NCBI RefSeq assembly: GCF_000372645.1
Contig: NZ_APMP01000026.1
Coordinates: forward strand, 1-64,000
Length of the DNA: 64,000 nucleotides
DNA from: Caulobacter vibrioides OR37
GTDB lineage: Bacteria > Pseudomonadota > Alphaproteobacteria > Caulobacterales > Caulobacteraceae
Reading direction: 5' to 3'
Below the pieces are notes generated by a model. That model worked only from the letters and a program-made list of their open reading frames with translations. It did no database searches and was not told the origin of the DNA. Each line of letters opens with the position of its first letter. Within the stretch, counting starts at the first letter, position 1. Below are positions 57,992 to 61,585 of the stretch, one piece after another. The position numbers and the translations under genes are program-made.

Positions 57992-58067
57992 TGGCAGGAG
58001 TGGAGGGACTCGAACCCCCGGCCCTCGGTTTTGGAGACCGATGCTCTACCAGCTGAGCTACACTCCT
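57992..58067 (-). tRNA. tRNA-Trp (anticodon CCA)
   Basis: 76 bases. Acceptor stem AGGAGTG/CACTCCT, discriminator G and encoded CCA end. The anticodon loop is TCTCCAAAA with CCA at the expected centre. The T loop GGTTCGAGTCC is intact. It stands just upstream of secE on the same strand, the usual place of tRNA-Trp in bacteria. Confidence 0.97.
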
Positions 58068-59399: not shown

Positions 59400-60230
59400 A
59401 TGACGGCCACCGCGTCCGCCGCTCCCGCCCCCGTCAAGGAAGCTCCCTACTTCACCGAGACGGTGCTGTGGGTGAAGCACTGGACCGACCGGCTGTTCAG
59501 CTTCGCCATCACGCGCCCGGCCAGCTTCCGCTTCCGCTCGGGCGAGTTCGTGATGATCGGCCTGCCGCCGCGCGAGGACCTGGGCGAGAAGAAGCCTATC
59601 CTGCGCGCCTACTCGATCGGCTCGCCCAGCTTCGCCGAGGAGCTGGAATTCTTCTCGATCAAGGTTCCCGACGGTCCGCTGACCTCGCGTCTGCAACTGA
59701 TCCAGGAGGGCGACGAGATCCTCCTGGGCAAGAAGCCGACCGGCACGCTGGTGCTGGACGCCGTGCGCCCGGGCAAGCGCCTCTTCCTGTTCGGCACCGG
59801 CACGGGCCTGGCGCCCTGGCTGTCGGTGGCCCGCGACCCGGACGCCTACAGCCGCTTCGAGCGGGTGATCGTCTGCCACGGCGTGCGCGAGGTGAAGGAG
59901 CTGGCCTATCGCGACCTCTTTACCCGCGACATCTTCGACGACCCGCTGGTCGGCGACGAGGCCCGCGCCCAGCTGACCTATTATCCGACCGTGACCCGCG
60001 AGCCGTTCGAACGCCAGGGCCGCTTCACCGACCTGATCGAGAACGGCAAGCTGTTCAGCGATCTGGGCGTCGAGGGCGGGAAGTTCGATCCCGAGCACGA
60101 TCGGGCCATGCTGTGCGGCTCGATGGCCATGATCAAGGACACCGCCGCCATCCTGGAGGCCCAGGGCCTGAAGGAAGGCTCCAACGCCGAGCCGGGCGAC
60201 TTCGTCATCGAGCGGGCGTTCGTCGGCTGA
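59400..60230 (+). CDS. fpr: Ferredoxin-NADP(+) reductase
   Basis: 276 residues from the ATG at 59400, which begins MTATASAAPAPVKEAPYF; the frame extends upstream to a TTG at 59364, but no homologous sequence is added. The FAD-site RAYSIGSP and the NADP-site FGTGTGLAPWLSVARDP are typical, and AMLCGSMAMIKDTA near the C-terminus is characteristic of bacterial FPRs. It transfers electrons between NADPH and ferredoxin or flavodoxin, for oxidative-stress defence and iron-sulphur assembly. It is upstream of the aro leader on the same strand. Confidence 0.94.
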   Translation: MTATASAAPAPVKEAPYFTETVLWVKHWTDRLFSFAITRPASFRFRSGEFVMIGLPPREDLGEKKPILRAYSIGSPSFAEELEFFSIKVPDGPLTSRLQLIQEGDEILLGKKPTGTLVLDAVRPGKRLFLFGTGTGLAPWLSVARDPDAYSRFERVIVCHGVREVKELAYRDLFTRDIFDDPLVGDEARAQLTYYPTVTREPFERQGRFTDLIENGKLFSDLGVEGGKFDPEHDRAMLCGSMAMIKDTAAILEAQGLKEGSNAEPGDFVIERAFVG

Positions 60231-60310
60231 CGCGCCCGGCTGGGAGACGCGGGAAAGGGCCGCGCGCTTTGGACGTGACAGGCGGCGAACTTGGCTCTAG
60301 GGTCACGGCG

Positions 60311-60394
60311 ATGACCCTCGCCGCCAGCCAACAGCTGTTTTGGTATTTTAGCTATCCGACGCCTCTGGCGCCGGGAGGGGATCGTTCGGCCTGA
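60311..60394 (+). CDS. Aromatic leader peptide for DAHP synthase attenuation
   Basis: 27 codons from the ATG at 60311 with AGGG 8 bases upstream, ending TGA at 60392-60394. Codons 10-15 encode Phe-Trp-Tyr-Phe-Ser-Tyr. Phe and Tyr there are written as TTT and TAT, which are uncommon in this GC-rich DNA, so the ribosome would be sensitive to charged tRNA shortage. Hairpins able to compete with the terminator follow before the DAHP synthase gene. This is the classic arrangement of an attenuation leader; aromatic amino acids would be the signal. Confidence 0.78.
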   Translation: MTLAASQQLFWYFSYPTPLAPGGDRSA

Positions 60395-60454
60395 AGATCA
60401 GGCTCTCTAGAACACCTTTCACCAGCCGCCAGGGGATCCCCGGGCGGCTTTTTT
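60370..60454 (+). promoter_or_regulatory. Attenuator: competing antiterminator and intrinsic terminator
   Basis: Terminator: AGCCGCC at 60424-60430 pairs with GGCGGCT at 60443-60449, with inner GGGGATCCCC, followed by T residues to 60454. Antiterminator: 60370-60383 (GCCGGGAGGGGATC) pairs with 60435-60448 through 7 + 4 base pairs. A stop-codon hairpin GCCTGA-AGA-TCAGGC spans about 60390-60404. A ribosome stalled at the Phe/Trp/Tyr codons would leave 60370-60383 free and prevent the terminator; one at the stop codon would cover it and allow termination. Confidence 0.72.
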
Positions 60455-60493
60455 GATGGCCGCCGGACCTCCCGACCTTCCAGGAGCAAAGCC

Positions 60494-61585
60494 ATGCCAT
60501 CCGCCGCCGCCGTCACCGCGCTGCCCGTCCCCACCGACGATCTTCGGATCTCCAAGCTGCGAACCCTCAGCCCGCCCGCCCAGGTGATCGGCGAGGCGCC
60601 GGCCAGTTCGTCGGTCGCCGAGGTGGTCGGCGACGCCCGCCGCGCCGTCCACGACATCCTCGACGGTCGCGACGACCGGCTGGTGGTGGTGATCGGCCCG
60701 TGCTCGATCCACGATCCCAAGGCGGCGCTGGACTACGCCCGCCGACTGGCCGCCGAGCGCGAGCGTCACGCCGGCGAGCTGGAGGTGATCATGCGGGTCT
60801 ATTTCGAGAAGCCCCGCACCACGGTCGGCTGGAAGGGGCTGATCAACGACCCGGATCTGGACGGCGGCTTCCGCATCGACGAGGGCCTGCGCCGGGCGCG
60901 CCGGGTGCTCCTGGACGTCAGCGCCCAGGGCCTGCCGGCGGCCTGCGAGTTCCTGGACGTGACGACGCCGCAGTACATCGCCGACCTGGTGGCCTGGGGC
61001 GCGATCGGGGCCCGCACCACCGAAAGCCAGATCCACCGCGAGATGGCCTCGGGCCTCTCTTGCCCGGTCGGCTTCAAGAACGGGACCAACGGCGACGTGA
61101 AGGTGGCGATCGACGCGGTGACGGCCGCCGCCCAGCCGCACCATTTCCTGGCCGTGACCAAGGAGGGCCGCGCCGCCATCGCCACGACGACCGGCAATCC
61201 CGACTGCCACCTGGTGCTGCGCGGCGGCAAGACTCCGAACTACGACGCCGAAAGCGTCGCCGCCGCCGCCCAGGCCTTGGCCAAGGCCGGCCTCGCGCCG
61301 CGCCTGATGGTCGACGTCAGCCACGCCAACAGCGGCAAGAACCATGAGAACCAGCCGGCCGTCACCGCCGACGTGTGCGCCCAACTGGCCGGCGGCGCCT
61401 CGCCGATCATGGGCGTGATGATCGAGAGCAACCTCGTCGCCGGCCGCCAGGACATCGTGCCCGGCCAGCCGCTGGTCTACGGCCAGTCGGTCACCGACGC
61501 CTGCGTCGACTGGGAGACCTCGGTCCGGATGCTGGACGACCTGGCCGCCGCGGTGAAGGCCGGACGCGCGGCGCGGAGAGGGTAA
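60494..61585 (+). CDS. aroG: 3-deoxy-7-phosphoheptulonate synthase (DAHP synthase, class I)
   Basis: 363 residues, AroF/G/H type. Typical blocks are VVIGPCSIHDPKAALDYARR, MRVYFEKPRTTVGWKG, the PEP-site GARTTESQIHREMASGLS, the Lys-site VGFKNGTNGD and the metal-site VDVSHANSGKNH. It catalyses the first step of the shikimate pathway, from PEP and erythrose-4-phosphate. The ATG at 60494 has AGGAG upstream. It is the only structural gene directly behind the attenuator. The isozyme type (Phe-, Tyr- or Trp-sensitive) cannot be told from the sequence alone. Confidence 0.95.
   Translation: MPSAAAVTALPVPTDDLRISKLRTLSPPAQVIGEAPASSSVAEVVGDARRAVHDILDGRDDRLVVVIGPCSIHDPKAALDYARRLAAERERHAGELEVIMRVYFEKPRTTVGWKGLINDPDLDGGFRIDEGLRRARRVLLDVSAQGLPAACEFLDVTTPQYIADLVAWGAIGARTTESQIHREMASGLSCPVGFKNGTNGDVKVAIDAVTAAAQPHHFLAVTKEGRAAIATTTGNPDCHLVLRGGKTPNYDAESVAAAAQALAKAGLAPRLMVDVSHANSGKNHENQPAVTADVCAQLAGGASPIMGVMIESNLVAGRQDIVPGQPLVYGQSVTDACVDWETSVRMLDDLAAAVKAGRAARRG

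Follow-up and report, generated by a model that had tools for sequence, protein, structure and literature searches.

A short reading frame rich in aromatic residues, followed by two mutually competing RNA hairpins, precedes a DAHP synthase gene in Caulobacter vibrioides OR37, and very probably constitutes a ribosome-mediated transcription attenuator that senses charged aromatic tRNAs. This assignment is based on conservation among relatives, covariation of paired positions, the competing hairpin, and the geometry of the ribosome footprint. From these computed parts we infer where transcription would start and how stalling, termination, and induction would follow. The window is a stretch of 64,000 nucleotides (positions 1 to 64,000 of contig NZ_APMP01000026.1) with a G+C content of 69.6%, from a genome (G000) of 4.43 Mb. 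The closest named records to its DAHP synthase are Caulobacter genes, with 87 to 88% identity, and the features of the locus are as follows.

60275-60301, plus strand: probable promoter, with a -35-like GTGACA at 60275-60280 and a -10-like GCTCTAGG at 60294-60301 (from alignment and placement).
60311-60394, plus strand: leader peptide ORF of 27 amino acids and a stop codon, MTLAASQQLFWYFSYPTPLAPGGDRSA, lacking a Shine-Dalgarno (SD) core (from sequence and from similar leaders in relatives).
60338-60355, plus strand: putative sensor codons Phe10-Trp11-Tyr12-Phe13-Ser14-Tyr15, TTT TGG TAT TTT AGC TAT.
60356-60374, plus strand: possible 1:2 "protector" hairpin inside the ORF, CCGaCGCC-UCU-GGCGcCGG (from the fold of 60356-60455).
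60362-60380, plus strand: predicted antiterminator 5' arm inside the ORF, with the core CCUCUGGCG at 60362-60370, 6 nt past the last aromatic codon.
60384-60413, plus strand: predicted hairpin enclosed by the antiterminator arms, overlapping the stop codon of the leader (from folding).
60415-60435, plus strand: predicted antiterminator 3' arm, of which 60424-60435 doubles as the terminator left arm (from folding).
60424-60454, plus strand: predicted intrinsic terminator with a 7-bp outer and a 3-bp inner stem, followed by six T (from folding and covariation).
60494-61585, plus strand: DAHP synthase of the class I AroFGH type, the gene proposed to be regulated (TIGR00034, 526 bits against a cut-off of 173).

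The leader ORF begins with the ATG at 60311 and closes with a TGA ending at 60394, 99 bases 5' of the DAHP synthase ATG at 60494, exactly as in a preliminary description of this DNA, and the Phe-Trp-Tyr-Phe-Ser-Tyr run noted there is present in the window and kept in relatives. Across both strands of the window, no other ORF of 8 to 60 codons has five or more aromatic residues in six codons, and dinucleotide shuffles of 60231-60493 yield such an ORF in 2 of 5,000 cases. The run had also been said to use uncommon Phe and Tyr codons; this is correct for TTT, which accounts for 32 of 566 Phe codons (5.7%) in 47 long window ORFs picked by codon composition, but not for TAT, which accounts for 136 of 317 Tyr codons (43%). 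Leaders collected from this and other genomes make up 124 entries, with some genes present twice, and 107 distinct peptides; over the collection Phe is encoded by TTT 260 times and by TTC 77 times. The aromatic runs of the 107 leaders are 84% aromatic in frame versus 25% and 18% in the other two frames, a contrast that is overstated because the run was chosen by its in-frame content.

General aromatic control, rather than control by a single amino acid, had been proposed for this leader, and this fits the 76 of 107 distinct leaders that contain Phe, Tyr, and Trp together. It does not extend to the 30 leaders with Phe and Tyr only, so Trp sensing is not universal; the remaining leader has Phe and Trp.

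The strong terminator of the preliminary description is borne out as AGCCGCCAGGG-GATC-CCCGGGCGGCT followed by T6, and 60420-60455 folded alone reaches -20 kcal/mol (z of -3.5). A generic terminator scan of 60200-60500 found none and did not flag the leader hairpin, we believe because an A-G mismatch splits the stem. Pairing was evaluated on an alignment, also used for the covariance model (R1) described below, of 33 of the 60 leaders then known; near-duplicates, nine Devosia rows misplaced by MAFFT, and some divergent rows were omitted, so that its pair counts hardly speak for Devosia. Terminator pairs are kept in 93.7% of alignment cells, 4 of 9 pairs are changed on both sides among 32 distinct sequences, and none of 500 shuffles reaches this covariation score. 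RNAalifold on 23 sequences gave almost nothing, with a MAFFT alignment in which the Devosia terminator was offset.

The terminator and the antiterminator compete for 60424-60435. When 60356-60435 is folded, 60362-60380 pairs with 60415-60435 around the inner hairpin at 60384-60413 in one long hairpin of -39.4 kcal/mol (z of -3.1), and none of 200 shuffles is as low. With the terminator right arm included (60356-60455), the best fold is the terminator together with the small hairpin at 60356-60374 (-48.7 kcal/mol), and from the leader ATG onward (60311-60455) the best fold is the antiterminator, not the terminator, at -57.8 kcal/mol (z of -2.4). The small hairpin is clear in the window but is not put forward as a general feature, with p<0.05 in only 24 of 105 leaders and a median p of 0.195.

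The conserved pairing is between CTGGCGG in the leader and CCGCCAG in the terminator left arm, with 88.4% of alignment cells paired versus 16 to 57% when the arms are slid against each other. A different alternative pairing, of 60370-60383 with 60435-60448, had been proposed from the window, where 11 of 14 positions are complementary, but it is not conserved: 50.0% of cells are paired, similar to the same arms slid by -3 (51.4%) or +1 (49.1%), and this candidate was rejected. In the antiterminator core, 2 of 7 pairs have changes on both sides and 24 of 500 shuffles attain the covariation score, so that the count-based covariation support is modest and weaker than that of the terminator. Forms changed on both sides include AGCGG:CCGCT, CCGGCGG:CCGCCGG, and CCACCGGCGGT:ACCGTCGGTGG. 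In rhizobia, where the left arm reads CCGCTAG, a wobble pair is retained in the terminator, and AGCGG in the leader fits the altered arm; the leader at L066 presents CCACCGGCGGU against ACCGUCGGUGG.

The duplex between the leader end and the left-arm region is better than shuffles at z<-1 in 55 of 59 leaders. Less favorable are the contiguous antiterminator helix, which has at least 6 bp in 80 of 107 leaders and beats shuffles at p<0.05 in 55 of 107, and swaps of arms among 30 leader groups, in which the native arm beat the mean foreign arm in 21 groups for the 3' arm and in 26 for the 5' arm. Of the 105 leaders having the pairing motif, 88 place its start 8 to 11 nt past the last aromatic codon, although the motif pattern is permissive and the matches at L083 and L085 are probably due to chance. 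It is found in all three reading frames of the ORF (85, 11, and 9 leaders) and is therefore kept as RNA, not as peptide. In Devosia geojensis (L042) it lies in another frame than in its Devosia relatives, such that the peptide ends in PLRRRLTRA rather than PLPAEATARLI, with the RNA element intact. Many leaders also have a purine-rich stretch, GGAGG or GGAAGGG, after the pairing element (60371-60380 in the window), part of which is paired with a CCC located 5' of the terminator left arm; it resembles an internal SD sequence and might slow the ribosome.

The start of the message is unlike that expected from the preliminary description, which placed an SD sequence before the leader; no core (GGAG, GAGG, or AGGA) is found upstream of the leader ATG in the window, and a core is present at the leader start in 8 of 91 nonredundant relatives, with 2 to 6 of 91 in other windows. 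Instead, the region is occupied by promoter-like sequences. The columns GTGAC and CTA are kept in 7 of 7 aligned Caulobacter-type sequences, a TA dinucleotide begins at -13 or -12 of the leader ATG in 59 of 91 relatives and within -16 to -10 in 74 of 91 (versus 7 to 15 of 91 in other windows), and TGACA begins at -35 or -34 in 21 of 91. A sigma-70 consensus promoter scan of the window gave no match at the candidate leader promoter. Since the -10 box is so placed in relatives, transcription would begin at the leader ATG or within a few bases upstream, and the leader ORF is probably leaderless or nearly so, which both the promoter placement and the missing SD fit. In some lineages, such as Massilia (L019 and L049), the best -10-like match is near -30, corresponding to a short 5' UTR.

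The proposed sequence of events is as follows. Transcription would begin at the AUG or immediately upstream of it, giving a (nearly) leaderless message on which a ribosome would load. When Phe-, Tyr-, or Trp-tRNA runs short, this ribosome would stall with one of codons 10 to 15 in the A site. A ribosome with its A site on the last sensor codon covers roughly the next 9 nt, so that its edge meets the start of the pairing element, and the front edge of the stalled ribosome would end about where CUGGCG begins. CUGGCG and the RNA following it could then pair with 60415-60435, capturing the terminator left arm and allowing read-through into the DAHP synthase gene. With charged tRNAs, the ribosome would pass over CUGGCG, leaving the left arm free, and the terminator would form and stop transcription near 60455.

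In computed folds of the RNA before the terminator right arm is made, ribosome position decides between the two structures, as the preliminary description had supposed; most equilibrium folds of the full RNA show no switch. At equilibrium, the terminator wins in most leaders, with a mean of 0.84 when the ribosome is on the run and 0.92 at the stop codon; termination is higher at the stop by more than 0.05 in 31 leaders, lower in 8, and tied in 68 of 107, and values for the window are 0.19 at F10, 0.13 at W11, 0.62 at Y12, 0.76 at F13, and 0.32 at Y15. Because equilibrium folds of most leaders favor the terminator wherever the ribosome sits, the choice would have to depend on the kinetics of folding, as it does in other attenuators. 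Left-arm capture was scored before the right arm is made, an approach adopted after the equilibrium result had been seen, using a ribosome mask on the 107 distinct leaders in two variants, with the RNA behind the ribosome either omitted or allowed to pair.

With the RNA behind omitted, capture is 0.82 to 0.86 with the A site 1 to 5 codons before the last aromatic codon and 0.75 on it, falling to 0.51, 0.34, and 0.28 at 1, 2, and 3 codons past it and staying at 0.25 to 0.32 to the tenth codon. A control in which the intervening stretch is shuffled gives 0.56 to 0.58 up to the last aromatic codon and 0.51 to 0.55 at 1 to 3 codons after the run, drifting to 0.32 at the tenth. Capture in the window is 0.90 through codon 14, 0.60 at Tyr15, and 0.29 at codon 16. 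With the RNA behind allowed to pair, capture is 0.80 to 0.84 while the A site is 1 to 8 codons short of the last aromatic codon, 0.68 once it is there, and 0.33 to 0.44 one to four codons past it, and the run mean exceeds the mean after it by more than 0.1 in 97 of 107 leaders, with the reverse in one. In this variant capture recovers toward the end of the ORF, to 0.63 with the ribosome at the stop codon, and the run exceeds the stop by more than 0.1 in 50 of 107 leaders and is lower in 3; the window switches little (0.89 to ∼0.77).

Leaders of this kind are widespread. With a leader defined as at least three aromatic residues in eight together with a terminator having a run of four or more T, a leader and terminator are present in 59 of 81 loci with an AroG-type enzyme (80 named contigs and the genome of the window), in alpha-, beta-, and gammaproteobacteria. 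Positive loci include Caulobacter, Kaistia, Devosia, Rhizobium, Methylosinus, Alcaligenaceae, Oxalicibacterium, Massilia, Pandoraea, and Rhodanobacter, and leaders are found in C. vibrioides strain T5M6 (L006) and at a Bordetella locus. Outside the alphaproteobacteria, many of the loci with the leader belong to Burkholderiales and Xanthomonadales. A Pseudoxanthomonas locus (L025) has a leader and terminator as well, seen in the sequence beyond the 59 and missed by the rule because a stronger upstream hairpin was picked. Gammaproteobacterial bins, Xenorhabdus, and SAR86 account for most of the 21 other loci lacking a call, which also include a few betaproteobacteria (L054, L062, and L067); two loci, L039 (upstream masked as N) and L072 (at a contig end), are tallied as having no leader though their upstream sequence is missing. 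One locus, titled Mycobacterium sp. KBS0706 (L014), has a leader and a DAHP synthase of alphaproteobacterial type (70% identity), and its organism label may be wrong.

Searches with the R1 covariance model extend this association. Among 289 alphaproteobacterial genomes, the 10 with an AroFGH match above cut-off are the genomes of the 10 best R1 hits, which score 48 to 88 bits, the next being 33. Nine of these hits are just upstream of the gene, and the tenth is at a contig end pointing off it, with the gene beginning another contig; the weakest (G232, 48 bits) has by eye a leader with Phe and Tyr only. At an E value of 0.01, hits of 33 bits or less occur in 84 further alphaproteobacterial genomes, and 20 of these examined as loci (L092 to L111) have no such DAHP synthase. 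In a second sample, of 348 genomes across the phylum, 194 have AroFGH and 50 of these have an R1 hit at the gene. All 23 alphaproteobacterial AroFGH genomes are among them, each with the hit beside the gene, as are 12 of 12 in family f164, 6 of 6 in f167, 6 of 10 in f187, 2 of 3 in f190, and 1 of 1 in f195; other hits in this sample score 28.8 to 37.4 bits and are away from the gene. By their leaders, f164, f167, f187, and f190 appear to resemble the Tepidimonas, Pseudoxanthomonas, Pandoraea, and Massilia loci, respectively. Because the genome of the window is in both samples, there are 32 distinct alphaproteobacterial AroFGH genomes, and all 32 have the leader, one split over two contigs and one weak.

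A leader is found at none of the 30 phylum-sample loci with the best-scoring AroFGH genes (L142 to L171, one per genome), and the same holds for 11 other selected loci at whose gene R1 has no hit (L221 and L229 to L238). Two pairs of entries have no leader by the rule: L091/L114 (the same gene), with a weak leader of Phe and Tyr visible by eye in L091, and L086/L113 (one genome, two contigs), with a full reverse-strand leader visible by eye in L086. Two Phe-rich leaders, L216 and L217, are also picked up weakly by R1, at 33 bits. The first, MKIFNTRFLFGFFFIPPL, precedes a single 667-codon ORF (L216:1418-3570) matching both bifunctional chorismate mutase/prephenate dehydratase and class I-beta DAHP synthase; enzymes for the first and for later steps of Phe synthesis look fused here, under a single leader.

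A midpoint-rooted FastTree of 178 DAHP synthases, 116 of them labelled as having a leader, has 9 label changes, and 52 of the 62 tips labelled as having none form one group with a support of 0.89. The other 126 tips comprise all 116 with a leader and 10 without, two of the latter (L039 and L072) being missing data. The Pseudoxanthomonas-like group is near the alphaproteobacterial groups in this tree, a placement hinting that the gene and leader may have been transferred together. A plasmid collection searched with the leader gave no match. The preliminary description had made the case turn on whether the F/W/Y run and two alternative hairpins are conserved in related genomes; the run, the terminator, and a competing hairpin are all kept, and attenuation is not refuted by this comparison.

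The genome of the window codes for a second DAHP synthase, without an aromatic ORF upstream.

G000:C6:44396-45730: class II DAHP synthase of the window's genome (L240).

All 22 alphaproteobacterial genomes tested, including this one and three without AroFGH, have a class II DAHP synthase (TIGR01358), and an aromatic ORF (4 of 7 residues) is present within 400 nt upstream of it in none of the 22. Class I-beta hits in 11 genomes tested are all below cut-off. As the class II gene has no aromatic ORF, the attenuated AroG-type enzyme looks like an inducible second enzyme, suggesting why these alphaproteobacterial genomes have two DAHP synthases, an unattenuated class II and an attenuated AroG-type.

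A more elaborate reading joins these points, and it is tentative and doubtful as a whole. The attenuator would be a leaderless, pan-aromatic OR gate, for which shortage of any one of the three charged tRNAs suffices because the sensor codons lie where a stalled ribosome frees the antiterminator; gene and leader would form a cassette, long established within a single branch of the enzyme family and spreading as a whole, that acts as an inducible booster beside the unattenuated class II enzyme, and the terminated RNA of ∼145 nt and the peptide may in addition act in trans, like those of the S. meliloti trp attenuator.

That the leader acts mainly in trans, with a terminated RNA of ∼145 nt and/or the peptide regulating other genes, with or without attenuation in cis, is improbable. 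Such activity has a precedent in rnTrpL and peTrpL, reported for the leaderless Sinorhizobium meliloti trpL attenuator (available part of PMC7298713), and the present leader is probably leaderless too, but the presence of the pairing element in all three frames past the run argues against selection on the C-terminal part of the peptide, and the element lies in cis before the same gene. A translational switch, in which access to the ribosome binding site of the DAHP synthase gene depends on the leader ribosome, is very unlikely; 74 of 91 relatives do have an SD core within 30 nt 5' of the DAHP synthase match, but the hairpin is followed by at least four T in the 59 leaders (a condition of the rule) and the terminator stem covaries. 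It is scarcely plausible that the hairpin only terminates the ferredoxin reductase-like gene upstream, with the aromatic ORF incidental: that gene ends at 60230 on the same strand, and intergenic intrinsic terminators are ordinary, but the leader and terminator recur before this enzyme in those 59 loci of three proteobacterial classes, the aromatic codons are in one frame, a -10-like box is at the ORF start, and shuffling yields such an ORF in only 2 of 5,000 cases. An aptamer binding an aromatic amino acid directly can practically be dismissed, since beyond a structured leader nothing speaks for it, there is no Rfam match at gathering score at the leader, and conservation falls on the codons, on the short pairing element, and on the terminator, while the spacer between them varies.

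Rfam 15 at gathering score has a single match in the window, a tRNA gene elsewhere (57995-58067, minus strand), and none in 20 relatives; in 20 further relatives at an E value of 0.01, there is one sub-threshold match, elsewhere in L200. A search of 60200-60600 at an E value of 1 gives one sub-threshold match within the gene and one to ncS54 (RF02871) on 60399-60455, which at 19.6 bits against a cut-off of 43 is rejected as the identity of the element; the main text of the ncS54 paper does not mention DAHP or aroG. Attenuation at this gene by charged aromatic tRNAs is the preferred reading, and the element could be curated as an RNA family. It is a concrete candidate for regulating the first step of the shikimate pathway in bacteria, Caulobacter included, for which the literature searched describes no such regulator, and covers the Rhizobium, Bordetella, Massilia, and Pseudoxanthomonas loci named above.

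The classical enterobacterial trpL and pheL attenuators have sensor codons in a short ORF, a terminator, and a mutually exclusive antiterminator, but each responds to a single amino acid, precedes another gene, and has a leader ORF with an SD sequence. The window leader shares their defining parts: an ORF with codons for the end products, a terminator, and an antiterminator that takes the terminator left arm. Its mixed-codon design is shared with the enterobacterial ilvGMEDA leader, in which one leader mixes codons of several end products, there the branched-chain amino acids. Attenuators of the trpL and pheL type are described in PMC7298713 and PMC2659441, and an Escherichia coli aroF attenuator has been proposed, as cited in PMC2659441 and PMC8632094, each in the parts available. 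In the available part of PMC7298713, the 5' end of the S. meliloti trpL attenuator RNA coincides with the leader ATG; this is an alphaproteobacterial leaderless attenuator, a design that the present leader may follow, but with Trp codons and located before trpE(G). For aromatic genes, the available part of a proteobacterial regulon survey (PMC5343134) discusses TyrR and TrpR, and the main text of a Caulobacter ribosome-profiling paper does not mention DAHP.

In the literature searched, which excludes most subscription journals, the preliminary impression that such a leader is little described holds for alphaproteobacteria, and no description of the element in alpha-, beta-, or gammaproteobacteria was found. 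It does not hold more widely, as DAHP synthase leaders are known in Corynebacterium glutamicum (aroR) and Acholeplasma. In the latter, the uORFC-13-1 motif precedes aroF, combines a terminator with a uORF containing one or more Phe codons, and, in the available part of PMC8632094, is limited to Acholeplasma and environmental sequences; the likeness is one of description. The C. glutamicum aroR leader has Phe-Tyr-Phe codons and attenuates the DAHP synthase gene aroF (available parts of PMC11802643 and PMC4046766), and the two leaders, compared through the published description, share consecutive aromatic codons and attenuation before a DAHP synthase; aroR is from an actinobacterium and, unlike the window leader, has no Trp codon named in those parts. 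It is induced under Phe limitation and unaffected by Tyr (available part of PMC11802643), and the mixed run therefore raises the question of whether three tRNAs act as an OR or one is dominant, as Phe is over Tyr in C. glutamicum. The element is very likely a regulator of this known kind, trpL/pheL- and aroR-like, newly seen and widespread in these proteobacterial groups.
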